In this document: positions 11,730 through 56,292 of the stretch, in pieces
How positions within the stretch are numbered: position 1 is the first letter of the stretch
How the letters are laid out: each line of letters starts with the position of its first letter
Source of the DNA: Kryptolebias marmoratus
Taxonomy: Eukaryota; Chordata; Actinopteri; Cyprinodontiformes; Rivulidae
Assembly (NCBI RefSeq): GCF_001649575.2
Contig: NC_051433.1
Location: 23,736,525-23,800,524, forward strand
Length of the DNA: 64,000 nucleotides
Direction of reading: 5' to 3'
The notes under the pieces: generated by a model
Databases searched by the model: none
What the model was told of the DNA's origin: nothing
What the model saw: only the letters and a program-made list of their open reading frames with translations
Program-made: the position numbers and the translations under genes

Positions 11730-12670
11730 TACTGACTTTTACTGTGGACAGGGTTCTGTTCTGGGGCCTATTCTTTGTTTTAGCTTTATGTGCTTTCGGT
11801 CAAATTATTATTAAATTCAGCAATATTTGTTGCCACATTAATGCAGATAATATCCAGCCATAATGCTGCTTTAAGGACTTTGAGTTGCTCATATTTTCAA
11901 ATGGAAGTGAGCGCCTGTCAGACATTAAGAATTTGATAAAAATAACTACCTTCAATAAAAGAATTGCATATTGCCCACTGCCTTGCAAGCCATAGCTTTA
12001 AACAGAAATCTTGTGCAATCTTCTGTTAGTGCTCCAAGTACGTGATAAGGATGTCTCTCAGCTACCACTACACCAGAGTTTAGCTCAACATGTGTAAAAT
12101 TGACTGAGTTATAGGAAATTTAGTGTCAGCCATCTTCATTTGGGTTGGCTCCAAAAATGAATCAGTTCTAGATGTGCATTCAGTGAATATTTCTGAGAGT
12201 TTCAAAAAAAACATTTACAAGATAATTTGCAGACAGATGGACTTACACACAAGTGGGCAATTATATGATCGTCTGCCACCATGAAAGGCAGACAATAATT
12301 AAACCCTGATAAGACAGAATGTCTGATCATTGCCCCTGACAACACGGTTCCACAAATCAGGCAACAAATAGGTCATTTAGACTCAGCTGTTCGGTCAAGT
12401 CTGAAAAACTTTAGTTTTTGATCAGTCAGTCATTCCAAACAGCTGATTGCAAATATGTTTCTTCCACCTACCAAACATTTCTAAATTAGAAAATCTATAG
12501 TATTGAAATTAGAATTAGAGATGATGGTCTATGTTTTTATTTTCTCTCCTTTAGATTGTAACACTTTTGGTTTGTCTTTAAAAAAGAAAAAAAGAAAAAT
12601 AAAGCCCTTGATTGACTTCAGCTGGAACAAAACTGCAGTGAGGCTCTTACAGTCTCTAAACAATCTAGAC
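11730..12670 (+). pseudogene. LINE reverse-transcriptase relic, split by an R1 repeat
   Basis: At about 11,746 the frame GQGSVLGPILCFSF matches the conserved 'QGSVLGPLLF' block of LINE reverse transcriptase, followed by .CHINADNIQP (degenerate catalytic ADD region). After the R1 copy at 11,990-12,292 the frame LNPDKTECLIIAPDN and VPQIRQQIGHLDSAVRSSLKNF corresponds to the 'LN.dKTEvlii.p' and '..LGV.fD' region that normally follows within about 30 residues. 12,600-12,670 retains SWNKTAVRLLQSL, like the 'naAaRLL' block. Stops and frame changes show it is dead. The L2/Rex1-like assignment is tentative. Confidence 0.7.
11990..12292 (-). repeat. Dispersed repeat R1, copy B (inserted in the LINE relic)
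   Basis: The minus strand reads through the R1 order: ..GAAACTCTCAGAAATATTCA.., ..ATTTTTGGAGCCAACCC, AAGATGGCTGACA, ..CTATAACTCAGTCAATTTTA.., GGTGTAGTGGTAGCTGAGAG, then ..GCACTAACAGAAGATTGCAC. It is a single unit of about 300 bp between two halves of a reverse-transcriptase reading. Confidence 0.7.
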
Positions 12671-12679
12671 AAACTCCAG

Positions 12680-17953: not shown

Positions 17954-20900
17954 ATGGAGGAGTTTCTGATTGTAGACCTGAGCAACTCCAGCACCACAAG
18001 CTTGACAATAGATGAGGTAAGTCTCATTAAAGTTGACTTACTTTTATCATTATTATTTAAAGTTTAGAACCCTGAAGAAAGTTTAAACTGGTTGCTAAGA
18101 AACAACAAAAACACTCAAAAGTGTTGTTTTGGATTTTTCATGACATATGGAGAAACTTTATTTCATAACGACTACCGTTTCATTTACTGTAAAAGTGAAC
18201 AACTAGCTTTACATTTCCAACTTTAGATTTACAGAAATTGCTTGAAATATTTGCTGTTTGTGGCAGCAGCTGAGGTTTAACAATGCTATCACTGATCTGC
18301 TGGTCTTTCTAACACTTTCCAACAGTGTGAGTTGAAAGCACACACACACACATCGGGATTCAAACTCTCGTTCAAATTAAAGATCATTTCGAAACTCTGT
18401 CAGTATCAAGTTATTTTGCAATTTTGAAAACAAAAATTACCCATGCTGCTTTGATGTTTTCTTTTTCATATTTTAAATGAGCTGTAGCTGTTAACAGATG
18501 GTTAAAACAAGAGCATTTGTGCCAAAACTGAATGCAATGAAACAGTTTCCTTGGAAACTATTGAATTTTATGCCTATATAAACTCTAATAACACATTAAA
18601 TACCATAATGAATTACTTTAACTGAGGACATTTTTGAGGGATTCTTTCAAATGCTTTTAAGCTAAAGAGTGATTAAACCTCATGAATCAAACCTAAATGT
18701 GTCACTGACTGAGGTACTTGTCCGGCTTATAAAATCAACATTGGCATTGGTGTTATGGCTATGAAATTTTTAGGAATCAAGATGACTTTGCTTATTATTT
18801 ATTTTAAAAAAGTCCTCCAGTTGTTGTTCTTTGCTGTAGTTTTTGTGACAGTGCATCATGTGTTTCACAGATGTATAATTGCAATTTAAAGACCCTTTTA
18901 TCTGGACCTACAGCAAAAAAAGGACAACTCATTTTGAATTTAGTATAAGAGGTGAAGACAACATTGTGGACTTTGAAAGTGTGTAGCAAGAAGAAGAAGC
19001 ACAGAGAGTTGGAAAAGTAAGAACAGAGCAAAGTCTGCAAGGTCTTTGCAAGTTTTCTTTCAGTGCTAGCAGAGCAGCTCCACCTGTTGTCATCAGTAGT
19101 TCCAGGTAGACAAGCTGGTGCCAACATTGCTTCTGCTGCAAGCCAAGAGAGAGGAGCCAGGGATTATGAACTTACAAGACTCTATCATACTGATCAGGAA
19201 AATAACTAATGACTGTTAAAATTATATATGTATTGTTTATTTATGATACATATGTGGGTTACGTTTGCTTGGTTTTGGCTGTTATTGTTACCAAGTTTTG
19301 AATAGCTGAAAACAGTGTTGGGTGAAACAAGCTGAACCACAGTGACTGAGAGATCTGAGGAAATCTCTTGACTTGTAGTGTTTGAGATGGAGCGCCTGTT
19401 TTTTTTTTTTTTTTTTTGTAATTACTCTGCACATTTCATGGTCTGATTCGGGGGTGGCAAACTGAAATCTTTTTTATGTTTTCCACTTACAAATACTTTG
19501 TCTGTTTGCACATTGATAAACTCTAGAAATGACCCTGAACTCTTCCCAAACTGATGGAAACAACAATTGTTTCTCTCAGATCATTGCTGATGTCTTTTCT
19601 TGGCATTATGTTAACACACCTGAATGCTCCAAAACAGCAAAATGCTACAACATCTGTCGAGGTGCTGTAATTTTCTGAGGATCAGTTAATTCAAGTATTT
19701 GATTGGCAGTGGCTGACTGTTATTTAGTCTTTTATTGCCTTTTGATGCAGTAAAAGTGGACCTATTTCATATTCAAACATTGCTTCTGCATGGTGGGTTA
19801 GTTTTAGTTAAATAAAAAGTGACACTGGTTAATTTGTCACCTGTGTTGTTTATCTGAGGACAAATGCACCTCATTTTAAGATATAATATGGACTAAATTA
19901 TTATTTATCAGGGCCTATGGAATACTTTTTAGTTGAAAGTGGGTCTACTTTCTTTAATATCTCAACGTAGAAGCAACTAAATGTCTTGTCAATCACTGAG
20001 CTTTTCTTGAACGAGGCTACCCACAAAAGGTCCATAATAATGTAAAACTTCAGAAACAGAAACAAGTTTTCAACTCTTTTGTTTAACAAATACACACACA
20101 AACATACATTTTTGATACATGTACAGCTTATACAGTTTAAAATATCTTTTTTTTTTTTTAGAAACATGATACCTTTTAGGGCAACATGGTAATGCAGTGA
20201 TTACAGCTGTCACCTCCCATCGAGAAGGTAGCAGGATCACCTCCTAACCTGGGGGCTTTTTGGGGGTAGTTTGCATGCACTCCCCACATGTGGGTTTACT
20301 CCGGTTTCCTTCTACAGACCAAGAACAGGCATCTATAGTTAATTGGCAACTCTAGATTGTCTCTAGGTGTGAGTGAGAGCGTTAATGGCAGTTTGTCTTT
20401 TTGTGTCCCGGTGATGGACTTGCGACCTGTCCAGGGTGTCCCCTGCCTCTCTCTTTACAGTGATTGCTGGAGATAGGCACCAGCTCCCTGTGACTTGGAA
20501 ATTAGAAGCGGGTAAAAGAAAATGAATGAATGGATAATGCCCTTCAATCAGAGCACATCTTCATGTGGAATGAAAAAGGAGCTGATAACTCTTGCATGGC
20601 TCTAACATTATCCTCTATCTGTTTTTGTTTCATTGAATCAGACCTGTGAAATTCCAGAAGGACCTGAAAATGAGGATAGAGATGGTTTCAGTAAGCAGCA
20701 GCTTATTCAGTCAATAAAAACTCCAGAGACACCACACAGCAGTGACCTCAGTGAGGAAAGCTTCAAGGACAAAAGTGATATAACACGACATGAACTCAAC
20801 CCCACTGCTGAAAAAAAGTTTATCTGCAACCAATGCGACAAGAGATTCAGCAAGTCAGGGACTCTGAAGACTCATCAGCGGATCCACACTGGAGAGAAAC

Positions 20901-21196
20901 CTTACATCTGCAACCAATGCGACAAGAGATTCAGGTCGCATGGACATCTGACACGTCATCAGAAGACCCACACTGGAGAGAAGCCTTACATCTGCAACCA
21001 ATGCGACAAACGATTCAGCGAGTCAGGGGCTCTGAAGACTCATGAGCTGATCCACACTGGAGAGAAACCTTACTACTGTGACTCATGTAGGCAGCATTTC
21101 AGGCAGGCAACTCATTTGAAATCTCACAAGCAAGGACATCCACACTGGAAAAAAGCCTTACTTCATAATTTCATCAACGTTAAAGAAATGCTTTAA
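17954..21196 (+). CDS. Small C2H2 zinc-finger protein; join of 17954-18016 and 20642-21196
   Basis: Exon 1 opens at ATG 17954 and encodes MEEFLIVDLSNSSTTSLTID-E, ending GAG before donor GTAAGT. A likely 5' leader exon acceptor (TTTTCATTTGTCAG) lies 13 bases before the ATG. Exon 2 follows acceptor TTTCATTGAATCAG in phase 0 (TCEIPEGPENEDRDGFSKQQ..), giving about 205 residues. Three near-identical fingers (consensus CNQCDKRF..H...H, with HTGEKPY linkers) and a fourth, YYCDSC..HLKSHKQGH, make a four-finger array. Residues -1/2/3/6 are K/G/T/T, S/G/H/R, E/G/A/T and Q/T/H/S. After finger 4 a one-base shift puts an IHTGKKPY-like linker out of frame, so the array ends abruptly in PHWKKALLHNF. The family binds DNA in the nucleus; the target is unknown. 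No KRAB or BTB domain is seen. Additional exons in the intron cannot be excluded. Confidence 0.75.
18017..20641 (+). other. Intron of the zinc-finger gene
   Basis: It is bounded by GTAAGT and CAG. It holds a T run at about 19,400-19,418 and the SINE-like copy at 20,175-20,540. No further coding exon was recognised. Confidence 0.65.
20175..20540 (+). repeat. SINE-like dispersed repeat, copy 3 (in the zinc-finger gene intron)
   Basis: The most complete head of the three copies: GGGCAACATGGTAATGCAGT, GAGAAGGTAGCAGGATCACC, then GTTTGCATGCACTCCCCACA, GTCTCTAGGTGTGAGTGAGA, GATGGACTTGCGACCTGTCC, AGATAGGCACCAGCTCCCTG and the tail GAATGAATGAATGGATAA. Confidence 0.75.
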
Positions 21197-26124: not shown

Positions 26125-26126
26125 TA

Positions 26127-26893
26127 CACTGTATTCCAAATTATTATGCAAAACGTGTTTAGGAGTGACAAGGTAAGAAATTTTTGGTTTGTCAGCTAAA
26201 CTCATTGATGGTGATGTGTGTCAAGGCTCCTTATATCATTGAAAGCAATTGCAGACACCTGTGCTAATTAGTTTGGCACGTGTGTCCAATTAAAGGCAAG
26301 ACTACTTAAGAAGGCTGTCCCACATTATTAAGCAGCCTACATTTTCAGCCAAAATGGGAAAGAAAAAGGATGTGTCGGCTGCTGAGAAGCAACAAATTGT
26401 GGAGTGTTTAGGTCAAGGCATGACTACAATCAACATTGCCAAGACACTTCATTGTGATCATCGCACAATTAAGAAGTATGTAGCTGATTCACAGCACACA
26501 CGTGTGCGTGCTGATAAGGGAAAATTGCGGACTCTTTCCAACAGGCAATTCCGTCGGATTAAAAGAGCAGCTGCAAAAATGCCTTGTCATGGCAGCAGAC
26601 AAGTTTTTGAAGCTGCTGGTGCCTCCAACGTCCCCCGCACAACAAGATGCAGGGTCCTTCAGAGATTTGCAGCTGTGCGTAAGCCATCCTGTCGACCTCC
26701 TCTATCCACTGCACACAAGCAGAAACGGCTCCAGTGGGCCAAACAATACATGAAGACTGACTTCAAAACTGTTTTGTTCACCGATGAGTGCCGTGCAACG
26801 CTCGATGGTCCAGATGGATGGAGTGGAGGATGGCTGGTTGATGGACACCCCATGCGAACAAGGCTACGGCGCATAATAATTTGGAACACAGTG
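26127..26893 (+). mobile_element. Internally deleted Tc1-like element with intact terminal repeats
   Basis: The left end CACTGTATTCCAAATTATTA (continuing TGC) at 26,127-26,149 is the inverted repeat of the right end at 26,871-26,893 (GCATAATAATTTGGAACACA, then GTG), with one mismatch. TA dinucleotides flank both ends (26,125-26,126 and 26,894-26,895), the Tc1/mariner target duplication. At 767 bp the element is about half the usual 1.3-1.6 kb because the catalytic centre is deleted right up to the inner edge of the right repeat. Confidence 0.93.
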
Positions 26894-26896
26894 TAA
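26354..26896 (+). CDS. Truncated Tc1-like transposase, DNA-binding half, 180 residues
   Basis: Starts MGKKKDVSAAEKQQIVECLG. Two helix-turn-helix units are visible: residues about 8-50 (GMTTINIAKTLHCDHRTIKK) and 60-115 (RQFRRIKRAAAKMPCHGSRQ ..VPRTTRCRVLQRFAA). The first catalytic aspartate is present in VLFTDECRATLDGPDGW, but the frame then passes from RTRLRR directly into the right terminal repeat (IIIWNTV), and its stop codon TAA is made by the target-site TA plus one host base. A full-length family member has about 340 residues with three acidic catalytic residues, so this copy cannot cut DNA. It could in principle still bind terminal repeats. Expression is unknown. Confidence 0.8.
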   Translation: MGKKKDVSAAEKQQIVECLGQGMTTINIAKTLHCDHRTIKKYVADSQHTRVRADKGKLRTLSNRQFRRIKRAAAKMPCHGSRQVFEAAGASNVPRTTRCRVLQRFAAVRKPSCRPPLSTAHKQKRLQWAKQYMKTDFKTVLFTDECRATLDGPDGWSGGWLVDGHPMRTRLRRIIIWNTV

Positions 26897-27671: not shown

Positions 27672-28342
27672 TGTGGTGATTCTGGACGTTTGGTATTTTT
27701 TGTACTTCCTGGTGGGCCGTCTCGACGGCTGATTGGCAGCTCTTCGTCACTCCCTCTACACCTGTGGCAGATCAGGCTCATCAGGAGACAGATGGTACTT
27801 AAGGCCGTGGTGGGAACCAGACCAGCGCTGGAGCATTGTTTTGCCTCTGTGGTAAAGTGCTAAGCCTCTTGTGATTTACGAGTTTCTTAGTGAACCCTTT
27901 TCTGAGCTTTTTGCATTTTTGTGCTTTTACCTACCTAGGACAACCTGACCTGCATGGATTCAGTCTGGTCTGTTTGTGGAAACCTGCCTTGGAGATAAAC
28001 TACCTATCTGTTTGCCTGTGCCTGTCTCCCTGCCTTGAGAGGGATACTTACCCACTGCCTCCTGGAGAAACTGCTAACCTGCTACTGGGAAATACTTACC
28101 TTCGTACTCACCTCCGTGCCGTGGATCACCCTTTGCACAGTAAGGCCTCTCACCTGAGGATTAATACTTACCTGCCTCTTCACCAAGGTAATACTTACCA
28201 CGACCTCTGCTTCCAGGTCCTGGTTCCTGTTATTATCACCGTTCCCGATTCACTGTAAAATAAACTCACTGTCTATTATCTTGGTCTCCCGCGTCTGTCT
28301 GACGCCGAGCTGCTCATTTTAGAATATTGCCGAATCCTGACA
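27672..28342 (+). mobile_element. Solo LTR of a retrotransposon (probably Gypsy-type), with 5-bp target duplication
   Basis: It begins TGTGGTGATTC and ends GAATCCTGACA, an imperfect inverted terminal pair with the canonical TG...CA. CAATG flanks it on both sides (27,667-27,671 and 28,343-28,347). Inside are a TATA-like TACTTAAGG at about 27,796 and a polyadenylation AATAAA at about 28,259-28,264 followed by a GC-richer tail, as in a U3-R-U5 layout. No internal gag/pol lies next to it, so the element was probably removed by LTR-LTR recombination. Four ATACTTACC motifs lie at 28,044, 28,092, 28,164 and 28,191. Confidence 0.85.
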
Positions 28343-28414
28343 CAATGTCTTTAAATAATGCACATAAAAACAGACATGGTCTTAAAATCATAGTTTAGAA
28401 AATATGAGGAAAGA

Positions 28415-28420
28415 AGATTT
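28415..28420 (-). promoter_or_regulatory. lrrn1: Candidate lrrn1 polyadenylation signal
   Basis: TTTATT on the plus strand (in GATTTTATTGAAG, about 28,413-28,420) gives AATAAA on the minus strand, about 810 bases past the lrrn1 stop and just short of the solo LTR. Another candidate is at about 28,883. Choice uncertain. Confidence 0.4.
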
Positions 28421-29227
28421 TATTGAAGTTGTTCATTAAACATGTTTCTGTGTGTAAACCACAATGAAACCAGTGATTGTAGACATTCTAGCAAAATAAG
28501 AAACACATTTTTTTAAGAATTTTAAAAAAGCCTTACATCTATTAGTTTATCTAGTGTATAACATTCATATTTCTATTGCTGGTTTACAGTACTCTGCAAA
28601 CTTAAAGTCTAAATAAAACATTGTTATTTAATGTACAAAAAAGTAAGTCAAATCAGAGCTGATACAACATTACAGAAGTGTTTCTAACATTTTTCAATAT
28701 ATATCAAGTCTAAATGTATTTCATCAGCTTACATTTGAGTTGATAGACAAATTAGTATATATTTATATGTATTTCAGTGCACAACAGTCAACAGTGAAAC
28801 TGTTTTTATAATAAACCAAACAAATTGAGTCTCTTAACAGTTCTGCCAGAGAAACATCCAAAAAAATGTTTGGATTTCAGCATTTATTTCTGTCCGCACA
28901 CTGAATCCATGACAATGCTCATGCTGCGTTCATCAAAATAAGTTACTAAAAGTAAAGCACAGTGACTACTAAGTTCAGGAAGCTTAACAAAGCTGGCATA
29001 TTGTGTGTCAAAATAAGTGAGAGGTAAAAAAGTAGTATTCTAAATTAGAGATTTAAAAATGTTGGTTCATCGATCGCCTTAGTCTAAGAAAATCAAAAAA
29101 AGAAAAGAAAGGTATATAATACAGAAAGACAAAATGAAAAGAACGTTCACTTTTACATAAAGAAGCAAGTATGTATATTTGTGCTACTGGACAATACTGT
29201 CCCTGCATCTCCTACAGGAATGCTTCT

Positions 29228-31546
<2,319 letters not shown>

Positions 31547-31548
31547 CT

Positions 31549-34540
31549 GAAAAACAAAAGACAAAGCTTAAAGTTTTAGACTAACAGCTGGGTGAAAACC
31601 AATCAATGTCCAAGGACAAACTTACAACATCCTTTCTAACACTCCAAAGGATTATTATAAAGCCTGTGACCTTCATAAGAAAATTATGAAAAAAAAATCC
31701 CAAAACAAACCTAACTAACAAACAAACAAAAAACAATGAGAAGAAGCTTTTAGAAGCTGCACAACTACAACAGCAACTTTGTATTGAGGCGACTGCAGCA
31801 CTCTAACAAAATATTGCTTATATCATTTCTCAGTCTTACAAAACAACTTTTTCTCAAAAACAACATACCCATGTGAATGAACGCTGTGTTAGCTAATGTT
31901 AAACCTAGCTAATTTATTATTAATATTAAACTAAACTATATGTTTAGTTTTATGCCATTTTCTTAACTGAACAATGTCCATGTTTTTATGTGAATGTATA
32001 TGTTGAGCATAGATCCACTGAAACAAACTGTGTTAATACCCATGGTGCTGAGGCTGCAAATGTATTAGTCCACCGGGGATTGAATAAACTTGAATTGACT
32101 AGACTATCATTTTAAAGGCCCTTATTTCTTTGTTCCTTCAAATTTTTAAGGCCAACTTCACTTTACTTCACTTCAGTATCAAGGCCAACTGTTCAGCAGG
32201 TAAACTAGGAGCTTTCCACTTGCAAAAAATATTGCCTGCTTGTTGTTTTGAACTCACCCCCCACCTATTTTTCTACTGTACTCCACAAAACTCAGTGTGG
32301 AGGTCTAACTGCTAAACTTACCACCAAGCTCACTGCATGATGCTTTCAGTTTGAAGGGCCATTAGCCTGCAGCATGTAACTTAAAGTACAACCAGACAAA
32401 AGACCCTAACAAAAGATATTTAGTCTTGCTACATCTAAAATTTCTTTTTTTTACATAGTACATGTTTCTCATAAATGCAGCAATTAAATAAGAAAGTAGA
32501 GTGACAAAGAACAACTGTGTCTACACCATTCTTGCGAGACTGAGTTATGTGCATCATCAACAGTTTTGAGAAAATGCAGGTTCAGCTCATTACAATGCAT
32601 ACACAAAATGCTGCTCTGAATTACTTGGAAAGAGATCAAATTCCATTGAGAGCTTTCATCTATCCAACAGGCCCATAAGGACTCCATCATTAGCTTCTCA
32701 GAACATCATTAAACATGATGAGATACTGATACAGACCGTGCCTTAAAGAAAGCAACAAAAAGATAAATGCCTTAATTTTTAATGCAACTTTCTCAACATC
32801 CAGAATATAGGACAAACATGGAGAAAAGTTTTTAGTGGGCTTTCAGTTTTTTTCCCCAGTTGAATGAACAGATGGAATAATATCCAACTTTTTTTCTGTG
32901 TTCTTTAAGTTTGTGATGGCTCATGACTACAATTGGGATTTGAAGGAAGGACCAGAGAAAAGGAGAAATCAGATGTAGACCTCTCAGTTACTTAATGGTA
33001 CAGGGTGGGGAAGATAGTAAGAGTTTTAATGGGCATCTGTCAGCCCAAACGGGAATTACAATCTGTGAATTAGAGGGGAAATTATTACATTTGGCATATT
33101 TTACTTAAAAGCAGTGCTACAGTGTGTAAGACCCCCATTCATACTAGATAACAATGCAGCTGAGGCAAAAATAAATCAGCCAGAACATTGAGCGTCTGCA
33201 GGGTCCAGGGTGCAGTGGACTCCCCATGACAATACACGTCATAGGGTGTGATATGGTATAGGGTTTTGAGCATGTACAACACTTTTGTAGCAAGGTCATG
33301 GAGGTGTCCTAGGTGGAAGAGTTGTGGCGGTGGTGGAAGTAAATCCATGGTATGGGCCCTGCACACACTAAAGGCCTCGTGTGCAAAGGGTCCTTTTGCA
33401 CAAAAATGGGGCAATACGCCCTTTTCCATACAAAAGTTAAGATGTATAAATAATGAAATTACTGTGAAAATGTGCACAGCCCCACCCCAACTTCATGACT
33501 GGCATCTGTTTGTTTCATTTTCACACTTAAAGGGTATGACGGGAAACTGTTAATGGTGTGAAAACAATTACTGTACACACCTAAGGGGTATACGACAAAG
33601 TGAGATTTACTGCCTTGTCAGCTATGTTGAGCTGAAAGTCAGAGTTATCAGTGTAACAGAGGATTTAGAATGGTTAGATGATTTTTCTGTTCTTAATAAT
33701 ATCCCAGGTAGAAAAATCATACAGTTATGTTTATATTTCATCATAGTTTTGGCTGGTGCTGGAACATTTAAAATAATTGTCTGATCGTCAAATAGTAACA
33801 AATAAATATTTCACCATCTTCTTGAGTCAGTCGGAGTCCCGCATTTAGGTTCTAATTAAATGTCAGCCTTATAATTGTCAAATTTGACCACAAGCTGTTA
33901 TTAATCAAATATATTTTCATTTATTCATCCGATCTATTAAAAACTGTACAGGCTAAGGTTTCTAATCTTAAATAAAAATCTTCCTGTTTGACCAGAAATC
34001 TTTTTTACAATATACTTGCATAATTTTCAGCTTAAGAAATAGCTGAAAAATGAGTTTGGAAACTTGAAAATACTAATAAGCCATATTCCGGCTGTGTGCC
34101 ACTAAGAATCTGCAGTTAGACTGCAGTATGCTTAAAAATGGAAGGATTATGCAACACGACACCATCAGAATCATATCAAGTTGCTGCTGTATGGCCTGTG
34201 TATCTTTTATATTTTGCAGGATTTGCTGAGACATCTATAAAACAGTTCATATTAGATTTAATTTGTTAGTACCTCTGTACATCAGAGAATGTTTAATAAA
34301 TGTTTGATTTGATCAATGAAGTGAGATCGGACAGAGTCAGAGTTGAATAAAACTTTATGATTGTGGAGTTTAAAGCTTAAAAGCTTTTTGTCTTGATCCA
34401 AACAGCAGAAGGCAGCCTAATGGTTCAAGAGAGTGACTTTGTGTTCTTCGCTGGCTAAACTACAGTTTCAGAGCATACCAAGACCCTGGTGTCTCAGTAG
34501 TTTTACAGTAGTTATATCTATAAACATGTGTAGCTTGAAA
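31549..34540. other. Probable lrrn1 intron, first part
   Basis: No coding exon recognised. Bases 32,460-32,760 are less repetitive and carry ACAAAGAACAAC and CATCATCAACAG-type motifs. They could be a conserved non-coding element, but this needs a multi-species alignment. Confidence 0.4.
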
Positions 34541-34549
34541 TGCCTCAGT

Positions 34550-34890
34550 CTCACTCCCAGCCCACTTCTGCATTGATTTACCATGCGTGTAATCCATGTA
34601 ACTGGTATCCAATATTACTGGGCAGCGATAACAATGTGCAGCCATCCTCCGGTTCACTTCCACCTTAATGCCTGACCATTTGTTTCTGACTTCTGCAGGT
34701 GTGCGGTGCTCTGACCACAGCAGCTGCACAAACACTGCCACTCCTCTTGCGCTTGGCACTAATGCCAGAGAACAGCAAGTCAAACATGTTCCTACACTCC
34801 GTTACTTTATTTAGTAGCATAACCTACTCACATTTCCTGAAATTCCTCTTTTTCCGGCATGCCAACATAATTTTTGATCGTGCAGAAAGG
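34550..34890 (-). pseudogene. Myb/SANT-like (Harbinger MYB / NAIF1-type) DNA-binding domain relic
   Basis: On the minus strand one frame gives CRNMFDLLFSGISAKRKRSG and, after a frame change, LLWSEHRTPAEVRNKWSGIK-VEVNRRMAAH. This is the order of the trihelix Myb/SANT domain in fish Harbinger-associated and NAIF1-like proteins (..RKNVLF..fSGIsaKRKrseW .. RTpAEVrkKWsdIKvevKRRmAaH). The first helix region (RNFRKCE, stop, VMLLNKVTE) has a stop, and the tail after AAHCYR is not recognisable. So it is a broken gene copy, probably from a PIF/Harbinger transposon. Confidence 0.65.
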
Positions 34891-36439
34891 AGAATGACAC
34901 ATGCAGGTCATATTTGAATTTTTTTACTTGTGGCATGTCGGGGGTGGTGTCTCATGTGGGCTCACATGTTACTGTGTGTGTTGTTTACGCTGCCTCTGTG
35001 ATTCTGTCTTGGTCCTTGTTTAAGTGATCTGGGGTGGCTGTGTGAGATGGTGGAACACTAAATTGTTCATGTAAGGCTGATGCTGGACATGTGAAGAGGA
35101 CAGATGTCCACTCACTCAATCATCTTCATTGGCCTCTGATTCTGAAACACTCATAAGCATTTTTATGCGCTTCTGTTTGTGTTGGACATGTTAGAACACA
35201 ACTAAAAAAAGGAAATTATTTAGTGAGCCACTATCTTGTTAGAGATTAAATCGCCACAGCAAAACCACAGAATGTATTTATTAAATAAAAGGTTTCCACC
35301 TGACAGTAACAATAAACATGAAGCATAAAGTATGCAGGCTTTACATCAAGCTATTATTTGTGTTTGAATAAACTGTACCGCAGTCCAATTGAAGGATTGT
35401 TCAGAGTAAGGTTTTTCCTTTGTGCTTTTTACGAACAGATGCTAGCAAACTGAAGGAATATGAAATGTATGGAAAACAGTAGAAAATGTCGAATATCAGC
35501 ATGTTTAGCATTCTCTCTATGAGAATGTCCATTCTCGTACTTTATTCAAAACAATGCTGTGCCACCAGAGTCAACAGTATGTCTTTGATTCTTCTCTCCT
35601 AATGTCACGGAAATGAGATGTCTTAATATAGTTATTGTTTTAAATATGGTGAATTTATGTCACCTTTGCAACAGCATTGCTCATTAGCAAGATCAGTTTG
35701 CCAGCAGGTGTTTAACAAGCCTATGTACTTGCTGTATTATGCCAACATTTTAAGATGTCCTTAACTTAATTAGGTTTATTTACGGGGCACTTCAGCCAGT
35801 GTCAAGCCAGATAGAATCCACCTACTTAATGCCCGGCACCACCTTATGGAGATGCCACCTAAGAGGCTTTCAAGCAAAAGAGCTGAGGAATACATCTGAA
35901 CATAGGTAAACTGCCTGGCAACAGCACGAAGGAGGAAGAAACACCACTCCGCTCCTCCTATACTGGGGAGACAGGGCGGAGCGAGGGGAGATCAGGGCTA
36001 CAATGGGATCTTGTTTTTAAGCTAAAGCATTGTATATTGTGCCTAGTGCTGTTTCAGTCAGGATTAGCAGTTGGAGATCCTGGAGGGGAGATTAGCTGGG
36101 GTTGTGTACAGAAATCACACCCAGAGGAGAGAAACGAGTCTCACAGCACTTTATTAAAGGCAATACATCTGCAGTAGCTACAACTGTAAGATCGGTGCAC
36201 AGTGTCTTATATGAATTATTGCTCAATTTCTTGTAGCAATTTTTGTCTATGACTTTATTTACTAAATATTTAATGAATCATTTTGTAGTGCTATAGTACT
36301 AGGAAAAGCGTTTTGGAAACTACAAAGTAAAATAGTGCACCAGAAGTTGTGATTTCTGCTAATTCTACTCACTCAAATAAGTAAAACGCCTTAAACTGGT
36401 AGATATTTTGTCACAAAAATCTATTTCAGTATTGTATTG
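34891..36439. other. Intronic/intergenic DNA
   Basis: No gene recognised in either strand. Confidence 0.45.
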
Positions 36440-36573
36440 TTCTTGCTTTTGGTTATTGTTAGTTTTGCTGCCGCGTCCGCCTTTTTGTTTGTTTATTTAA
36501 GTCAATAAATTAGTTTCCTTTTTAAATGATGAGTCTGCGCTCTGGGTTCGCCTCCGTCTCCCTCCCTTCTGAC
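36440..36573 (+). mobile_element. Possible LTR 3'-end fragment
   Basis: A T-rich tract leads to TCAATAAATTAG (polyadenylation-type AATAAA) and then TGAGTCTGCGCTCTGGGTTC-GCC..CTTCTGACA, the look of a Gypsy LTR R-U5 end. No matching 5' end or target duplication was found. Confidence 0.35.
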
Positions 36574-37929
36574 ATAAAATAACCATTAATAAGTGATATT
36601 TGATATTATTTTGGCATCAAAGGTAATAATAATTTTATTGTTGTGTTTAAATGAAAGCTAATTTATCTACTGATAGATTTTCAAATTTTTGTTTTAATTC
36701 TGTTAAATTGTAGTGTTTTCGTTCATCATACAATCAGAATCTCATACTGGCCCGTGTCTACTCCAGGATTGTTTTAGTGTCTGTGTTGTTTCTGCTGTTG
36801 ATCATTTCAGATTCAGTAAAGCCTGGCGTGTTTACAGTTCACCAAGCTGGTCAGGTAAGAATCCTGCTGGTCATGAGAGTGCTCACAAAAAAACTTTCTA
36901 ACGCCTGTGAGGTTTTGCCACCAAACTGCAGATTGCAGCTGTGCACTTAGGTGATTCATTTCCTACAGTCTGACAAAATTAATTTGTCTCCTCCTGTGGT
37001 AGGGCAAAGCTTTTCCAGGATGCCAGAAGAAATTACCTGGCTGATCATTTTAATTACCGTAGGCGGGCCCAAAGAGACACCCATGGAAATCACTGCAAGT
37101 TATGAAAGCTAAGCATAAAGATTGTTTATTCTATGTGATCTGGTGAGAGCATTATTAAAATGAAATTTAGACATTTAGTAACATGGTGGGTAGGAAAAAA
37201 GAGCAGTAATAATGACCAGGAAATTGCCCAAGTCAGATCTGAACCAGGGCCCTGATGCAAGAAGAACTTCTTCTTCTTTATGGAAACTCTTTAAGGAGTG
37301 ATATAGATGTGCCCCAAACATTTAATAATTAAACTGATCTTAGTGTCTGCACTCACAGAAAGACAAAAAGGTTCACCAAGTTTTCTACTACAATTATGTA
37401 ATATCTATTTGTCCAATATACTTAATTTAAAGAGGGACAATGCATAAAACAATGTTATACGTTAACAGACCCCAGCCCTAGTTAGGCTTTGTTTTAAGAG
37501 ACACAGAAACATTAAACTACTTTTGTATTTTAAATAATATGTGATTGCTTGGGTGAGATAATTAGACAAGACCCCAGCCACTGAAGGGCCACACAAACAC
37601 TGAATGGCATTTGGTCTTATGAGCTGAAAATCTCAGTGTGGAATTTCGACAAAACACTTTGTAAAATGAGCTAAACAACACCAGACTAACTTGCGTTCAC
37701 CTGCAAACATCTGCCGTTTAATACTAATTCAAACGCAACATTCAGAGGTTACTTCTGAAAAACTAAACAAGACCTAAAGAATACAAAACACTGGTCTGCA
37801 GGTATATGATTAGTTGCTACATTTCTTTATTATAGACAGTATTTATACTAAAAAAAAAACTATAGAAATGCATTTAGCAATTTTTAAAATTCTATATTTA
37901 GGAATAAAAAAGAAAAAAAAACCTGTAAT
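36574..37929. other. Intronic/intergenic DNA
   Basis: No gene recognised. Confidence 0.45.
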
Positions 37930-38093
37930 TTGACAGGATCTAGTACACTATGGTCCCTTCGAATCGCTTTCAAAAAGGCAAACATTGCTACAGGTACTGT
38001 AAGAACATACACATACTCCATTCTTTTGACTGTCCCCTCCGCCCGTCTCACCACCATGGGGAGCAGAGCCTTCAGTCGCTCTGCTCCCCGACT
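37930..38093 (+). mobile_element. LINE C-terminal fragment cut by the assembly gap (first copy)
   Basis: It reads ..PSARLTTMGSRAFSRSAPRL and stops at the N run. The intact version is at 48,037-48,490. Confidence 0.7.
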
Positions 38094-38193
38094 NNNNNNN
38101 NNNNNNNNNNNNNNNNNNNNNNNNNNNNNNNNNNNNNNNNNNNNNNNNNNNNNNNNNNNNNNNNNNNNNNNNNNNNNNNNNNNNNNNNNNNNN
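38094..38193. other. Assembly gap, 100 N
   Basis: Exactly 100 ambiguous bases, a conventional placeholder for a gap of unknown size. It sits between the two copies of the 10,007-bp block. Confidence 0.99.
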
Positions 38194-38449
38194 GGGAAAT
38201 ACTTACCTTCGTACTCACCTCCGTGCCGTGGATCACCCTTCGCACAGTAAGGCCTCTCACCTGAGGATTAATACTTACCTGCCTCTTCACCAAGGTAATA
38301 CTCACCACGACCTCTGCTTCCAGGTCCTGGTTCCTGTTATTATCACCGTTCCCGATTCACTGTAAAATAAACTCACTGTCTATTATCTTGGTCTCCCGCG
38401 TCTGTCTGACGCCGAGCTGCTCATTTTAGAATATTGCCGAATCCTGACA
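38194..38449 (+). mobile_element. Solo LTR, 3' part (second copy)
   Basis: Corresponds to 28,087-28,342. The left part is missing because the contig starts inside the LTR. Confidence 0.85.
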
Positions 38450-39334
38450 CAATGTCTTTAAATAATGCACATAAAAACAGACATGGTCTTAAAATCATAG
38501 TTTAGAAAATATGAGGAAAGAAGATTTTATTGAAGTTGTTCATTAAACATGTTTCTGTGTGTAAACCACAATGAAACCAGTGATTGTAGACATTCTAGCA
38601 AAATAAGAAACACATTTTTTTAAGAATTTTAAAAAAGCCTTACATCTATTAGTTTATCTAGTGTATAACATTCATATTTCTATTGCTGGTTTACAGTACT
38701 CTGCAAACTTAAAGTCTAAATAAAACATTGTTATTTAATGTACAAAAAAGTAAGTCAAATCAGAGCTGATACAACATTACAGAAGTGTTTCTAACATTTT
38801 TCAATATATATCAAGTCTAAATGTATTTCATCAGCTTACATTTGAGTTGATAGACAAATTAGTATATATTTATATGTATTTCAGTGCACAACAGTCAACA
38901 GTGAAACTGTTTTTATAATAAACCAAACAAATTGAGTCTCTTAACAGTTCTGCCAGAGAAACATCCAAAAAAATGTTTGGATTTCAGCATTTATTTCTGT
39001 CCGCACACTGAATCCATGACAATGCTCATGCTGCGTTCATCAAAATAAGTTACTAAAAGTAAAGCACAGTGACTACTAAGTTCAGGAAGCTTAACAAAGC
39101 TGGCATATTGTGTGTCAAAATAAGTGAGAGGTAAAAAAGTAGTATTCTAAATTAGAGATTTAAAAATGTTGGTTCATCGATCGCCTTAGTCTAAGAAAAT
39201 CAAAAAAAGAAAAGAAAGGTATATAATACAGAAAGACAAAATGAAAAGAACGTTCACTTTTACATAAAGAAGCAAGTATGTATATTTGTGCTACTGGACA
39301 ATACTGTCCCTGCATCTCCTACAGGAATGCTTCT

Positions 39335-41536
<2,202 letters not shown>

Positions 41537-41655
41537 TCATCAACCAAAGTTTCCACTGATGATGCCTTTCAGTTGATGAAACAAAACCCTCAGGAGACAA
41601 AGGTGCTCATGTAGTCAGCGGTACAGCAAAGGTTTCCAGGGTTTTTGGACTTTCT

Positions 41656-44646
41656 GAAAAACAAAAGACAAAGCTTAAAGTTTTAGACTAACAGCTGGGT
41701 GAAAACCAATCAATGTCCAAGGACAAACTTACAACATCCTTTCTAACACTCCAAAGGATTATTATAAAGCCTGTGACCTTCATAAGAAAATTATGAAAAA
41801 AAAATCCCAAAACAAACCTAACTAACAAACAAACAAAAAACAATGAGAAGAAGCTTTTAGAAGCTGCACAACTACAACAGCAACTTTGTATTGAGGCGAC
41901 TGCAGCACTCTAACAAAATATTGCTTATATCATTTCTCAGTCTTACAAAACAACTTTTTCTCAAAAACAACATACCCATGTGAATGAACGCTGTGTTAGC
42001 TAATGTTAAACCTAGCTAATTTATTATTAATATTAAACTAAACTATATGTTTAGTTTTATGCCATTTTCTTAACTGAACAATGTCCATGTTTTTATGTGA
42101 ATGTATATGTTGAGCATAGATCCACTGAAACAAACTGTGTTAATACCCATGGTGCTGAGGCTGCAAATGTATTAGTCCACCGGGGATTGAATAAACTTGA
42201 ATTGACTAGACTATCATTTTAAAGGCCCTTATTTCTTTGTTCCTTCAAATTTTTAAGGCCAACTTCACTTTACTTCACTTCAGTATCAAGGCCAACTGTT
42301 CAGCAGGTAAACTAGGAGCTTTCCACTTGCAAAAAATATTGCCTGCTTGTTGTTTTGAACTCACCCCCCACCTATTTTTCTACTGTACTCCACAAAACTC
42401 AGTGTGGAGGTCTAACTGCTAAACTTACCACCAAGCTCACTGCATGATGCTTTCAGTTTGAAGGGCCATTAGCCTGCAGCATGTAACTTAAAGTACAACC
42501 AGACAAAAGACCCTAACAAAAGATATTTAGTCTTGCTACATCTAAAATTTCTTTTTTTTACATAGTACATGTTTCTCATAAATGCAGCAATTAAATAAGA
42601 AAGTAGAGTGACAAAGAACAACTGTGTCTACACCATTCTTGCGAGACTGAGTTATGTGCATCATCAACAGTTTTGAGAAAATGCAGGTTCAGCTCATTAC
42701 AATGCATACACAAAATGCTGCTCTGAATTACTTGGAAAGAGATCAAATTCCATTGAGAGCTTTCATCTATCCAACAGGCCCATAAGGACTCCATCATTAG
42801 CTTCTCAGAACATCATTAAACATGATGAGATACTGATACAGACCGTGCCTTAAAGAAAGCAACAAAAAGATAAATGCCTTAATTTTTAATGCAACTTTCT
42901 CAACATCCAGAATATAGGACAAACATGGAGAAAAGTTTTTAGTGGGCTTTCAGTTTTTTTCCCCAGTTGAATGAACAGATGGAATAATATCCAACTTTTT
43001 TTCTGTGTTCTTTAAGTTTGTGATGGCTCATGACTACAATTGGGATTTGAAGGAAGGACCAGAGAAAAGGAGAAATCAGATGTAGACCTCTCAGTTACTT
43101 AATGGTACAGGGTGGGGAAGATAGTAAGAGTTTTAATGGGCATCTGTCAGCCCAAACGGGAATTACAATCTGTGAATTAGAGGGGAAATTATTACATTTG
43201 GCATATTTTACTTAAAAGCAGTGCTACAGTGTGTAAGACCCCCATTCATACTAGATAACAATGCAGCTGAGGCAAAAATAAATCAGCCAGAACATTGAGC
43301 GTCTGCAGGGTCCAGGGTGCAGTGGACTCCCCATGACAATACACGTCATAGGGTGTGATATGGTATAGGGTTTTGAGCATGTACAACACTTTTGTAGCAA
43401 GGTCATGGAGGTGTCCTAGGTGGAAGAGTTGTGGCGGTGGTGGAAGTAAATCCATGGTATGGGCCCTGCACACACTAAAGGCCTCGTGTGCAAAGGGTCC
43501 TTTTGCACAAAAATGGGGCAATACGCCCTTTTCCATACAAAAGTTAAGATGTATAAATAATGAAATTACTGTGAAAATGTGCACAGCCCCACCCCAACTT
43601 CATGACTGGCATCTGTTTGTTTCATTTTCACACTTAAAGGGTATGACGGGAAACTGTTAATGGTGTGAAAACAATTACTGTACACACCTAAGGGGTATAC
43701 GACAAAGTGAGATTTACTGCCTTGTCAGCTATGTTGAGCTGAAAGTCAGAGTTATCAGTGTAACAGAGGATTTAGAATGGTTAGATGATTTTTCTGTTCT
43801 TAATAATATCCCAGGTAGAAAAATCATACAGTTATGTTTATATTTCATCATAGTTTTGGCTGGTGCTGGAACATTTAAAATAATTGTCTGATCGTCAAAT
43901 AGTAACAAATAAATATTTCACCATCTTCTTGAGTCAGTCGGAGTCCCGCATTTAGGTTCTAATTAAATGTCAGCCTTATAATTGTCAAATTTGACCACAA
44001 GCTGTTATTAATCAAATATATTTTCATTTATTCATCCGATCTATTAAAAACTGTACAGGCTAAGGTTTCTAATCTTAAATAAAAATCTTCCTGTTTGACC
44101 AGAAATCTTTTTTACAATATACTTGCATAATTTTCAGCTTAAGAAATAGCTGAAAAATGAGTTTGGAAACTTGAAAATACTAATAAGCCATATTCCGGCT
44201 GTGTGCCACTAAGAATCTGCAGTTAGACTGCAGTATGCTTAAAAATGGAAGGATTATGCAACACGACACCATCAGAATCATATCAAGTTGCTGCTGTATG
44301 GCCTGTGTATCTTTTATATTTTGCAGGATTTGCTGAGACATCTATAAAACAGTTCATATTAGATTTAATTTGTTAGTACCTCTGTACATCAGAGAATGTT
44401 TAATAAATGTTTGATTTGATCAATGAAGTGAGATCGGACAGAGTCAGAGTTGAATAAAACTTTATGATTGTGGAGTTTAAAGCTTAAAAGCTTTTTGTCT
44501 TGATCCAAACAGCAGAAGGCAGCCTAATGGTTCAAGAGAGTGACTTTGTGTTCTTCGCTGGCTAAACTACAGTTTCAGAGCATACCAAGACCCTGGTGTC
44601 TCAGTAGTTTTACAGTAGTTATATCTATAAACATGTGTAGCTTGAA
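41656..44646. other. Probable lrrn1 intron (second copy)
   Basis: Same sequence as 31,549-34,539; no gene. Confidence 0.45.
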
Positions 44647-44656
44647 ATGCCTCAGT

Positions 44657-44997
44657 CTCACTCCCAGCCCACTTCTGCATTGATTTACCATGCGTGTAAT
44701 CCATGTAACTGGTATCCAATATTACTGGGCAGCGATAACAATGTGCAGCCATCCTCCGGTTCACTTCCACCTTAATGCCTGACCATTTGTTTCTGACTTC
44801 TGCAGGTGTGCGGTGCTCTGACCACAGCAGCTGCACAAACACTGCCACTCCTCTTGCGCTTGGCACTAATGCCAGAGAACAGCAAGTCAAACATGTTCCT
44901 ACACTCCGTTACTTTATTTAGTAGCATAACCTACTCACATTTCCTGAAATTCCTCTTTTTCCGGCATGCCAACATAATTTTTGATCGTGCAGAAAGG
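44657..44997 (-). pseudogene. Myb/SANT-like domain relic (second copy)
   Basis: Identical to 34,550-34,890: the RTPAEVRNKWSGIKVEVNRR block and the frameshifted upstream SGISAKRKRSG block. Confidence 0.65.
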
Positions 44998-46546
44998 AGA
45001 ATGACACATGCAGGTCATATTTGAATTTTTTTACTTGTGGCATGTCGGGGGTGGTGTCTCATGTGGGCTCACATGTTACTGTGTGTGTTGTTTACGCTGC
45101 CTCTGTGATTCTGTCTTGGTCCTTGTTTAAGTGATCTGGGGTGGCTGTGTGAGATGGTGGAACACTAAATTGTTCATGTAAGGCTGATGCTGGACATGTG
45201 AAGAGGACAGATGTCCACTCACTCAATCATCTTCATTGGCCTCTGATTCTGAAACACTCATAAGCATTTTTATGCGCTTCTGTTTGTGTTGGACATGTTA
45301 GAACACAACTAAAAAAAGGAAATTATTTAGTGAGCCACTATCTTGTTAGAGATTAAATCGCCACAGCAAAACCACAGAATGTATTTATTAAATAAAAGGT
45401 TTCCACCTGACAGTAACAATAAACATGAAGCATAAAGTATGCAGGCTTTACATCAAGCTATTATTTGTGTTTGAATAAACTGTACCGCAGTCCAATTGAA
45501 GGATTGTTCAGAGTAAGGTTTTTCCTTTGTGCTTTTTACGAACAGATGCTAGCAAACTGAAGGAATATGAAATGTATGGAAAACAGTAGAAAATGTCGAA
45601 TATCAGCATGTTTAGCATTCTCTCTATGAGAATGTCCATTCTCGTACTTTATTCAAAACAATGCTGTGCCACCAGAGTCAACAGTATGTCTTTGATTCTT
45701 CTCTCCTAATGTCACGGAAATGAGATGTCTTAATATAGTTATTGTTTTAAATATGGTGAATTTATGTCACCTTTGCAACAGCATTGCTCATTAGCAAGAT
45801 CAGTTTGCCAGCAGGTGTTTAACAAGCCTATGTACTTGCTGTATTATGCCAACATTTTAAGATGTCCTTAACTTAATTAGGTTTATTTACGGGGCACTTC
45901 AGCCAGTGTCAAGCCAGATAGAATCCACCTACTTAATGCCCGGCACCACCTTATGGAGATGCCACCTAAGAGGCTTTCAAGCAAAAGAGCTGAGGAATAC
46001 ATCTGAACATAGGTAAACTGCCTGGCAACAGCACGAAGGAGGAAGAAACACCACTCCGCTCCTCCTATACTGGGGAGACAGGGCGGAGCGAGGGGAGATC
46101 AGGGCTACAATGGGATCTTGTTTTTAAGCTAAAGCATTGTATATTGTGCCTAGTGCTGTTTCAGTCAGGATTAGCAGTTGGAGATCCTGGAGGGGAGATT
46201 AGCTGGGGTTGTGTACAGAAATCACACCCAGAGGAGAGAAACGAGTCTCACAGCACTTTATTAAAGGCAATACATCTGCAGTAGCTACAACTGTAAGATC
46301 GGTGCACAGTGTCTTATATGAATTATTGCTCAATTTCTTGTAGCAATTTTTGTCTATGACTTTATTTACTAAATATTTAATGAATCATTTTGTAGTGCTA
46401 TAGTACTAGGAAAAGCGTTTTGGAAACTACAAAGTAAAATAGTGCACCAGAAGTTGTGATTTCTGCTAATTCTACTCACTCAAATAAGTAAAACGCCTTA
46501 AACTGGTAGATATTTTGTCACAAAAATCTATTTCAGTATTGTATTG
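44998..46546. other. Intronic/intergenic DNA (second copy)
   Basis: Same sequence as 34,891-36,439; no gene. Confidence 0.45.
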
Positions 46547-46680
46547 TTCTTGCTTTTGGTTATTGTTAGTTTTGCTGCCGCGTCCGCCTTTTTGTTTGTT
46601 TATTTAAGTCAATAAATTAGTTTCCTTTTTAAATGATGAGTCTGCGCTCTGGGTTCGCCTCCGTCTCCCTCCCTTCTGAC
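46547..46680 (+). mobile_element. Possible LTR 3'-end fragment (second copy)
   Basis: Same sequence as 36,440-36,573. Confidence 0.35.
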
Positions 46681-48036
46681 ATAAAATAACCATTAATAAG
46701 TGATATTTGATATTATTTTGGCATCAAAGGTAATAATAATTTTATTGTTGTGTTTAAATGAAAGCTAATTTATCTACTGATAGATTTTCAAATTTTTGTT
46801 TTAATTCTGTTAAATTGTAGTGTTTTCGTTCATCATACAATCAGAATCTCATACTGGCCCGTGTCTACTCCAGGATTGTTTTAGTGTCTGTGTTGTTTCT
46901 GCTGTTGATCATTTCAGATTCAGTAAAGCCTGGCGTGTTTACAGTTCACCAAGCTGGTCAGGTAAGAATCCTGCTGGTCATGAGAGTGCTCACAAAAAAA
47001 CTTTCTAACGCCTGTGAGGTTTTGCCACCAAACTGCAGATTGCAGCTGTGCACTTAGGTGATTCATTTCCTACAGTCTGACAAAATTAATTTGTCTCCTC
47101 CTGTGGTAGGGCAAAGCTTTTCCAGGATGCCAGAAGAAATTACCTGGCTGATCATTTTAATTACCGTAGGCGGGCCCAAAGAGACACCCATGGAAATCAC
47201 TGCAAGTTATGAAAGCTAAGCATAAAGATTGTTTATTCTATGTGATCTGGTGAGAGCATTATTAAAATGAAATTTAGACATTTAGTAACATGGTGGGTAG
47301 GAAAAAAGAGCAGTAATAATGACCAGGAAATTGCCCAAGTCAGATCTGAACCAGGGCCCTGATGCAAGAAGAACTTCTTCTTCTTTATGGAAACTCTTTA
47401 AGGAGTGATATAGATGTGCCCCAAACATTTAATAATTAAACTGATCTTAGTGTCTGCACTCACAGAAAGACAAAAAGGTTCACCAAGTTTTCTACTACAA
47501 TTATGTAATATCTATTTGTCCAATATACTTAATTTAAAGAGGGACAATGCATAAAACAATGTTATACGTTAACAGACCCCAGCCCTAGTTAGGCTTTGTT
47601 TTAAGAGACACAGAAACATTAAACTACTTTTGTATTTTAAATAATATGTGATTGCTTGGGTGAGATAATTAGACAAGACCCCAGCCACTGAAGGGCCACA
47701 CAAACACTGAATGGCATTTGGTCTTATGAGCTGAAAATCTCAGTGTGGAATTTCGACAAAACACTTTGTAAAATGAGCTAAACAACACCAGACTAACTTG
47801 CGTTCACCTGCAAACATCTGCCGTTTAATACTAATTCAAACGCAACATTCAGAGGTTACTTCTGAAAAACTAAACAAGACCTAAAGAATACAAAACACTG
47901 GTCTGCAGGTATATGATTAGTTGCTACATTTCTTTATTATAGACAGTATTTATACTAAAAAAAAAACTATAGAAATGCATTTAGCAATTTTTAAAATTCT
48001 ATATTTAGGAATAAAAAAGAAAAAAAAACCTGTAAT
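46681..48036. other. Intronic/intergenic DNA (second copy)
   Basis: Same sequence as 36,574-37,929; no gene. Confidence 0.45.
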
Positions 48037-48490
48037 TTGACAGGATCTAGTACACTATGGTCCCTTCGAATCGCTTTCAAAAAGGCAAACATTGCTACAG
48101 GTACTGTAAGAACATACACATACTCCATTCTTTTGACTGTCCCCTCCGCCCGTCTCACCACCATGGGGAGCAGAGCCTTCAGTCGCTCTGCTCCCCGACT
48201 CTGGAACTCGTTACCACCTCACATTAGAAACATAAAGTCATTCTCACAATACAAATCAGAACTCAAAACACACCTTTTTAGATCTGCTTTTTCCACCTGA
48301 CACAATTGGTTTGCCTGATTTTTTTATAGATTTTATATAGATGTCTTTTCTTGTTTGTTTTATCTATTTACTTTTATTTACTTTTTTGATTGTTACATTT
48401 TATTTTCTGTTGCTGCTGATTTTGTTCTTTGTACGGTGTCCTTGAGTGCCAGAAAGACGCCTTTGAAATAAAATGTATTATTATTATTAC
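48037..48490 (+). mobile_element. 5'-truncated LINE, 3' end with (ATT)n tail
   Basis: The frame ends TVPSARLTTMGSRAFSRSAP-RLWNSLPPHIRNIKSFSQYK, then SELKTHLFRSAFST and a stop at 48,298-48,300. This is the hallmark C-terminus ('..RaFs..aPrLWNsLP..ir...s...FKs.LKThLFr.aF') of an abundant fish LINE reverse transcriptase. A 3' untranslated stretch then ends GAAATAAAATGTATTATTAT-TATTAC. Only the last part of the element is present, so it cannot move. Confidence 0.8.
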
Positions 48491-50660: not shown

Positions 50661-51050
50661 TCCACCTGTCAACACTATTTCTCTAAACTGAGTCTGTTCA
50701 AAGACCTATCTACAACAGGCAAGGTGTTAATTCGCCATAACTATCCACAAAACACCACAATAAAATATCCAAACTGTCCCCCTAAATTATTAAGGACTAA
50801 AATAATATTAAAAAGTCTTTTGATTCTTTGATCACTTAAATTGCTGTGAAAACTACCAATCAGTCCCTTTCTGAGTCAAGACATTCAGACAAGATCTATT
50901 TGTTAGTGGTTATGGATTTTTGTGTTTGAGGTTTGTGTTAATCTTTTCCTGTTTGTATGGTTCAGAATATCTTGGTTAGGTTTTCTTTTGTATTCTTATT
51001 ATCCCTCGGTCAGTTGTGTTTGGTCTGGTCCAATAATTAACACACCAGCA

Positions 51051-51659
51051 ATGAATCACTCATCTTCTCACAGTAAACTGTATGCAGCTCTTGGTTTTCA
51101 GTTACTCCTTAGTCAGACTGTCATTGCTCTTTTGTCTGCTTTGTTTTTAGGTTTTGCTGGTCATAGTTTCAGCTCTGCCTGCTGCAGTTTACCGGCTGTC
51201 TGCATTGGAGCAGCATTTTGTGAATACACTAAAGTTCTTCCAACCTATGACCCCAAGTGTGTCCCTTTCCTCTTGTTGTGTTTACATTTTGCACTCTGTG
51301 TGATTTGCTTTATGTATGTGCTCCACGCCTTGTTTCCTGTTTTTAGTGTTATTTCATGGCAGCGTGACAGTGCCACACACAGGCCTGGAATAGCTACTGC
51401 AGCGTCTTGTGTAGTTTTCTGTGTTTCCATGTGGATGAACACATTTGTAGTATATCTCCTCATAAACAGTCCCCTATTTATGAGGAGAATTTTAGAAATT
51501 ACAAATAAAAAGATTGTTTCCGAAAGCCTGCATTTCTGTGTGGACAAGTCTTGGCTTGGTGAACAAAAATTCATGGGTTTGTTTACCTGTCTGATGCCTC
51601 TGTTTTGTTTTCTGCAAATGGGTCACTCAACCATTGTCACCGTCCATGTCCTCAATTGA
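51051..51659 (+). other. Long open frame, 202 codons from its ATG; coding status doubtful
   Basis: The open frame runs upstream to 50,922 without a stop (245 codons from a GTG). From ATG 51,051 it reads MNHSSSHSKLYAALGFQLLL and is strongly hydrophobic and Cys/Phe-rich. It has several stretches that would score as membrane segments (SQTVIALLSALFLGFAG; VPFLLLCLHFALCVICFMYV). T-rich, A-poor DNA gives such frames by chance, and I recognise no family. No splice signals or polyadenylation site clearly support it. I regard it as a probable non-gene within T-rich repeat-like sequence. Confidence 0.2.
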
Positions 51660-53179: not shown

Positions 53180-54027
53180 ATTCTGTTAGGAAGTGAGCTA
53201 CAGAGGCTAAATTCTTCGAAAGAAACAGAGCAACACCTCCTCCACAGTCCTGTAGCCCCCGCGCCCCCTTCCCCCCGGTATAAAAAGCGCAACAGCTGCA
53301 GCGACAGAAGCGGACCACAATAGACCCCCTGCTAATGCAACCCCATTCTCTCAGCGCATCTCTGGGCCCCGTCGCTGTCCCTGAGGAAGACCTTCCGCTC
53401 GGAGCGGAGGAACCGAGACATCTGCCGGCACACTTTAACATTAACATGCAAATCGCATCTCCAACACGCACCGCACCGCACGCGGCTCCCGCACGGCTAA
53501 GGCGCCCGCCTGCCCTCCCTGCCGCAGACACACATCAAAGTTTCCCTGCAGAATGTCTATTTGAAGCGTTGAAGCACGGGTCTGATGTCCTGCCTCTACC
53601 TACGAACCGGGTTGTTTATAAACGCTGTGTAATGATGATAATGGTGCACCTTGAGCATCACAACTCTGCGTCGCCCCTGGTTGGGTCTGATTAATCGGGG
53701 GGCTTATTCAGATCCACTCACGTTTTTATTTATTTATTTTTTTTTAGTTCAGTAACAGCTGTGGGGATCCTGCATCTCCTCCTTTTTTCCTCACCTTGTT
53801 CCAGTCCACAGCTCCTTCCTTTCATCCAGGTGTTCGCGTCAGGAAAAAAACACGAAGAAGAGGAAGAATGTAAAATCGTGCCAGGTGAACGGGCTCGTCA
53901 AACAGCGTAACCAGGTATATTCCTGCTTCAGATGGTGCTGTTTACAGCGACTCGCCTCCTATGTGTCCCATCAGTCCCAGAGCGCCTCTGAGAGACGCAT
54001 GATGCGGTCTGCAGAGGGGGGGGGGGG

Positions 54028-56035: not shown

Positions 56036-56292
56036 TGCTGAATAAGCTTAAACTAATGATAAAACTAAAAGAAGCAGAACATTAGATGAAAGCTAAAAGG
56101 AGCAAAACATTATCTAAACGGTAAAATAAGCAAAACATTAGCTAAAAGTTAAAAGGAGGGAAACACTAGCTAAATGATAAAAGGAGCAAAAAGCTAGCTA
56201 AAAGTAAAAAGTAACAAAGACTAACTAAAACTAGAAAAAGGCAAGTTAAAAGCTAAAAGTAGCAAAAGGCCAAAAGCTAAAAGTATGTTAAA
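56036..56292 (+). repeat. Degenerate minisatellite, AGCTAAAAG unit, array 1
   Basis: About eight to nine imperfect units of roughly 30 bp built from GCTAAAAGGAGCAAAACATT-AGCTAAA, for example at 56,092, 56,122, 56,148 and 56,180, ending AAAAGCTAAAAGTAGCAAAA-GGCC. The same unit forms a second array at 60,640-60,880. Confidence 0.8.

Follow-up and report, generated by a model that had tools for sequence, protein, structure and literature searches.

The window, by which we mean the whole analysed stretch of 64,000 nucleotides, contains a block of 10,007 bp in two nearly identical copies, lying on either side of an assembly gap. The duplication is a real property of the assembly and very probably not of the genome. 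The sequence features, taken together, point strongly to a homotype overlap artefact, where one locus was assembled into two overlapping contigs, placed side by side without being merged. That the duplication is an artefact at all, either of this kind or of the heterotype one discussed below, and not a real gene duplication, can be held with near certainty. The coordinates of the block, of the gap and of the gene features found within and around them are reported in Table 1.

Table 1. Position of the duplicated block, of the assembly gap and of the associated gene features, in window coordinates.
Feature	Position	Strand	Basis or remark
Setmar-like SET-domain gene, expected lrrn1 neighbour	5,450-6,244	-	same strand as lrrn1
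Block, first copy; suffix (right-hand end) of left contig	28,087-38,093		base comparison, blastn, suffix/prefix test
Only two differences between copies	38,241 C vs 28,134 T; 38,303 C vs 28,196 T		47 and 109 bases from right contig start
lrrn1 coding exon, first copy	29,228-31,375	-	715 aa; ORF, Pfam, protein search
Candidate splice acceptor TTTGTTTTTCAG, upstream of lrrn1 start codon	31,547-31,558	-	sequence only
100-N gap between the two contigs	38,094-38,193		base comparison
Block, second copy; prefix (left-hand start) of right contig	38,194-48,200		base comparison, blastn, suffix/prefix test
lrrn1 coding exon, second copy	39,335-41,482	-	identical to first
CpG-rich stretch outside block; candidate promoter and exon 1 of lrrn1	53,251-54,000	-	inferred from sequence

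When the two copies are compared without gaps over their full length, two mismatches and no indels are found. The pair is also returned as a single match of 10,007 bp, 99.98% identical, when the window is aligned to itself by blastn (E up to 1e-4, low-complexity filter on); the remaining listed self-matches of at least 60 columns are at most 76.2% identical. The gap is the sole N run in the window and is exactly 100 N long: it coincides with the junction of the copies, which no contiguous sequence crosses. The copies are thus carried by the facing ends of two contigs, with the gap between them, and the suffix of the left contig equals the prefix of the right one over 10,007 bp, down to the terminal bases, as in a clean dovetail overlap. 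In a suffix/prefix test, covering lengths from 100 to 24,999 and scored where an exact 50-base anchor was present at one end, 10,007 is the only overlap length with less than 5% mismatches; a dovetail match of this extent is far above chance. The size of the block is plausible for a long read. Tandem Repeats Finder reports nine rows for the window, none of them inside the block, and a search of Rfam at gathering thresholds gave no match. The sequence-only reading, from which this analysis started, had placed the block at exactly these coordinates, with copies of equal length free of indels, and had correctly counted two T/C differences close to the start of the right contig.

Essential identity of the copies (two of 10,007 positions differ) goes together with a marked clustering of the differences, both located within 110 bases of the contig end, while the rest of the block, 9,897 bp, is identical. 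Under uniform placement, the probability that both fall in the first 110 bases is 1.2e-4 (2.4e-4 for either end), where the 110-base limit was chosen after the differences had been seen. At position 28,134, the first copy features a TpG and the second a CpG; at 28,196, the first copy retains a motif recurring nearby, ATACTTACC, which in the second copy reads ATACTCACC. Judging from their position and sequence, the two differences fit a poor consensus at the contig end: they may be due to consensus errors, to reads from another copy of a repeat or to reads from the other haplotype.

The 9-base motif ATACTTACC flanks the left edge of the block, with one occurrence outside, at 28,044, and three inside, at 28,092, 28,164 and 28,191. 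At the right edge, an open frame resembling the tail of a LINE reverse transcriptase is interrupted. A protein search with a 50-residue piece of this frame, spanning the right edge, returned no candidate, and an exact scan of viral contigs with 32 bases taken close to the left edge gave no match; because both edge searches were negative, the labels of LTR and LINE, previously assigned to the two contig ends, are unconfirmed.

The simplest sequence of events compatible with these observations would start from two contigs of one locus, left and right, sharing a dovetail overlap of 10,007 bp. The scaffolder would have set them adjacent, with a 100-N gap, rather than merging them, and the same DNA, including the lrrn1 coding exon, would thus have been written twice. 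Both contigs would derive from the same chromosome copy, their overlap would correspond to about one long read, and the two differences would be either consensus errors or repeat reads misplaced at the contig end. The artefact is favored because of a combination of features: the exactness of the ends, the position of the differences, the length resembling that of a long read and the absence of a match between the ends of the block. The idea of two overlapping contigs, already put forward in the sequence-only reading, is supported by the dovetail extending to both termini, by the 100-N gap and by the near-zero divergence; the same reading had expected the true locus to be about 10.1 kb shorter, and merging would shorten it by 10,107 bp (10,007 bp plus 100 N).

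Each copy of the block contains an open frame of 715 aa, with all 2,148 bases of the coding sequence identical between copies. Pfam was run on six of the nine ORFs of the window (all but the second lrrn1 copy, an ORF antisense to setmar, at 5,594-6,292, and an ORF at 12,485-13,000): in this frame it detects leucine-rich repeats and an I-set Ig domain, while the fibronectin III (fn3) match is weak (23.5 bits versus a cut-off of 25). Among the best 120 of 1,602 protein matches, the highest-ranking named ones are lrrn1, with an identity of 96% to that from the killifish Nematolebias whitei and of 92% to that from Nothobranchius pienaari; a further protein, at 95%, ranks between the two. Judging from these identities, the DNA probably comes from a killifish. 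The chick Lrrn1 gene has CRBN and a SETMAR-related gene as its neighbours (PMC2225406); the setmar-like gene found in the window has SETMAR itself (3bo5) as its best PDB sequence match, with an E value of 2.4e-89. The frame is identified as LRRN1, a nerve-cell gene, by its LRR and Ig domains and the weak FN3 match, by a length close to 716 aa within a single exon, and by its setmar-like neighbour.

LRRN1 is described as a gene of two exons, the second of which carries the entire reading frame; the intron between them is large (chick, 15 kb; human, 44 kb; mouse, 37 kb; PMC2225406). The candidate splice acceptor found upstream of the start codon has its counterpart in the second copy, ending at 41,654, at the same 10,107 offset. 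From these sequence features, the block appears to hold the lrrn1 coding exon and about 6.5 kb upstream of the candidate acceptor, part of the presumed first intron. Exon 1 and the promoter likely lie outside the block, the best candidate being near 53.8 kb. A CpG filter, applied to all windows not touching the N run, was passed at three places: at 4,251-4,750 (barely), at 5,501-6,250 (within setmar) and in the CpG-rich stretch of Table 1, where two 500-base windows show a GC content of 0.54 and 0.49 and a CpG observed/expected ratio of 0.95 and 0.76. The same stretch shows a donor-like CAAG/GTGAG at 53,795/53,794 (minus strand). If exon 1 is located at 53.8 kb, the intron leading to the nearer copy would be about 12.1 kb long, and exon 1 would be unduplicated. 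The wording "false duplication of lrrn1", used in the sequence-only reading, is therefore to be narrowed: the duplication is well explained as an artefact, but the block includes only the coding exon and part of the presumed first intron.

A different origin of the overlap, also artefactual, is conceivable but very improbable: the two parental haplotypes of the block could each be represented by one contig, left and right, and both have been retained in the scaffold (heterotype duplication). Such duplications are the main source of false ones in the study of Ko et al. 2022 (PMC9516828), and the "flanking contigs" of Rhie et al. 2021 share the A-X, X-B layout observed here (PMC8081667); the two T/C differences could, in this case, be heterozygous sites. 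Haplotype separation, however, normally requires divergence, and finding no difference in 9,897 bp has a probability of about 5e-5 at 0.1% heterozygosity, and of 0.007 at 0.05%. These figures disfavor the heterotype origin only on condition that the animal is not strongly inbred: for an inbred or selfing fish, the two kinds of artefact are hard to distinguish by sequence.

Still less credit can be given to a real, very recent tandem duplication (A-X-X-B), where the assembler would have failed at the X-X junction and the contigs would end exactly there. An assembly graph may end exactly at the boundary of an unresolved repeat or tandem, and write the repeat into both flanking contigs. In the HiCanu assembly of human CHM13, 49% of the contig ends fall in segmental duplications, 59 of the 95 regions concerned corresponding to long (>10 kb) ones, more than 98% identical (PMC7545148). 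Coincidence of the copies with the gap is thus strong evidence, but not proof, since real segmental duplications also break contigs (PMC7545148); the earlier argument, by which the limits of a real duplication would not coincide with a gap, holds for a gap placed at random, and is too strong for one which the duplication itself may have caused. Near-identity does not argue against a real event either: no difference in 9,897 bp corresponds to a divergence of 0.03% or less, or about 30,000 generations at an assumed rate of 5e-9 per site per generation. The intact sequence at 28,086/28,087 and at 48,200/48,201 does not discriminate, as the two outer junctions would be retained in a real tandem duplication too.

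A real duplication, on the other hand, requires that both contigs broke off precisely at the junction, and that the two differences lie beside the contig end by coincidence. No match able to promote unequal crossing-over is found between the two ends of the block (self-blastn, E up to 1e-4); three bases of microhomology are present at the hypothetical X-X junction, in favor of a real event, though near what is expected by chance. In the data of Ko et al. 2022, gaps between copies are typical of false duplications and absent from the true duplications described, but a gap between copies was also a selection criterion, and the support drawn from this source is partly circular, because the gap is among the criteria by which the duplications were selected (PMC9516828). 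As exon 1 and the promoter likely lie outside the block, even a real event would therefore not obviously have produced two complete genes. It would rather amount to a genuine young tandem copy of the lrrn1 coding exon, with one upstream promoter and first exon shared by both copies and the junction hidden by the gap, a reading that we consider very improbable. Finally, an origin of the block as a mobile element was set aside, given the host coding exon inside it and the absence of a match between its ends in the self-blastn.

Several other features are present in the window. At 26,125-26,895, a short element resembling a DNA transposon is bounded by 25-nt inverted ends, 96% complementary (26,125-26,149 and 26,871-26,895); its short transposase frame (26,294-26,896) is Tc1-like and scores 29.2 bits with HTH_Tnp_Tc3_2, below the cut-off of 31.5, and 25.4 with HTH_23, above the cut-off. 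A C2H2 zinc-finger frame at 20,606-21,196, containing an 84-bp tandem repeat in three copies, may represent part of a zinc-finger gene or pseudogene. A frame of 250 codons at 50,907-51,659, hydrophobic by eye, is matched by no Pfam family at E up to 0.001; for a 203-codon part of it, none of 132 candidate proteins is a homologue at the same limit. It is probably a chance frame. At 56,066-56,230, a tandem array is composed of 5.9 copies of a 28-bp unit, with 76% matches, and related sequence is found at about 60.6-61.0 kb.

The protein search also revealed, in several fish, a second lrrn1 paralogue of older origin, with 76-79% identity to the protein encoded in the window (pairs P0001/P0112, P0032/P0073 and P0030/P0115) and unrelated to the 10-kb duplication. 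The two paralogues are perhaps located on one chromosome in Nematolebias whitei, Dallia pectoralis and Thalassophryne amazonica, species noted without a systematic count, where the contigs given for the two members are equal in length; the entries from Dallia pectoralis carry no other name than hypothetical protein.

Annotating this assembly might yield two lrrn1 genes, or a single one whose coding exon is doubled, and might inflate gene-family counts. The finding is a matter of data hygiene only, and adds nothing new on the biology of the fish: it is almost certainly an ordinary assembly error, of a known artefact type. It provides, nonetheless, a clean example of an unmerged overlap for which the sequence itself can raise suspicion, once the contig ends facing each 100-N gap are compared as suffix and prefix.

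Similar cases have been described under different names. Kelley and Salzberg 2010 define as duplicated overlapping contigs (DOC) nearby contigs which overlap at their ends (PMC2864568). The two contigs of the window resemble them, being near each other and sharing an end overlap; DOC, however, are ascribed to differences between haplotypes and judged by mate pairs, while the copies described here are 99.98% identical (PMC2864568). The heterotype duplications of Ko et al. likewise feature adjacent gene copies, an assembly gap between them and a false gene gain, but are defined by haplotype-specific k-mers, while the present copies are almost without divergence (PMC9516828). In the homotype false duplications of Rhie et al. 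2021, overlapping sequences are found at contig boundaries, often with the length of a corrected read, and scaffolding turns them into tandem copies separated by a gap (PMC8081667). In the VGP pipeline, 100 N are inserted at each scaff10x join (PMC8081667). Compared by sequence features alone, a level at which no difference was seen, the block is like these homotype duplications: gapped tandem copies at contig boundaries, of a length plausible for a read and essentially identical.
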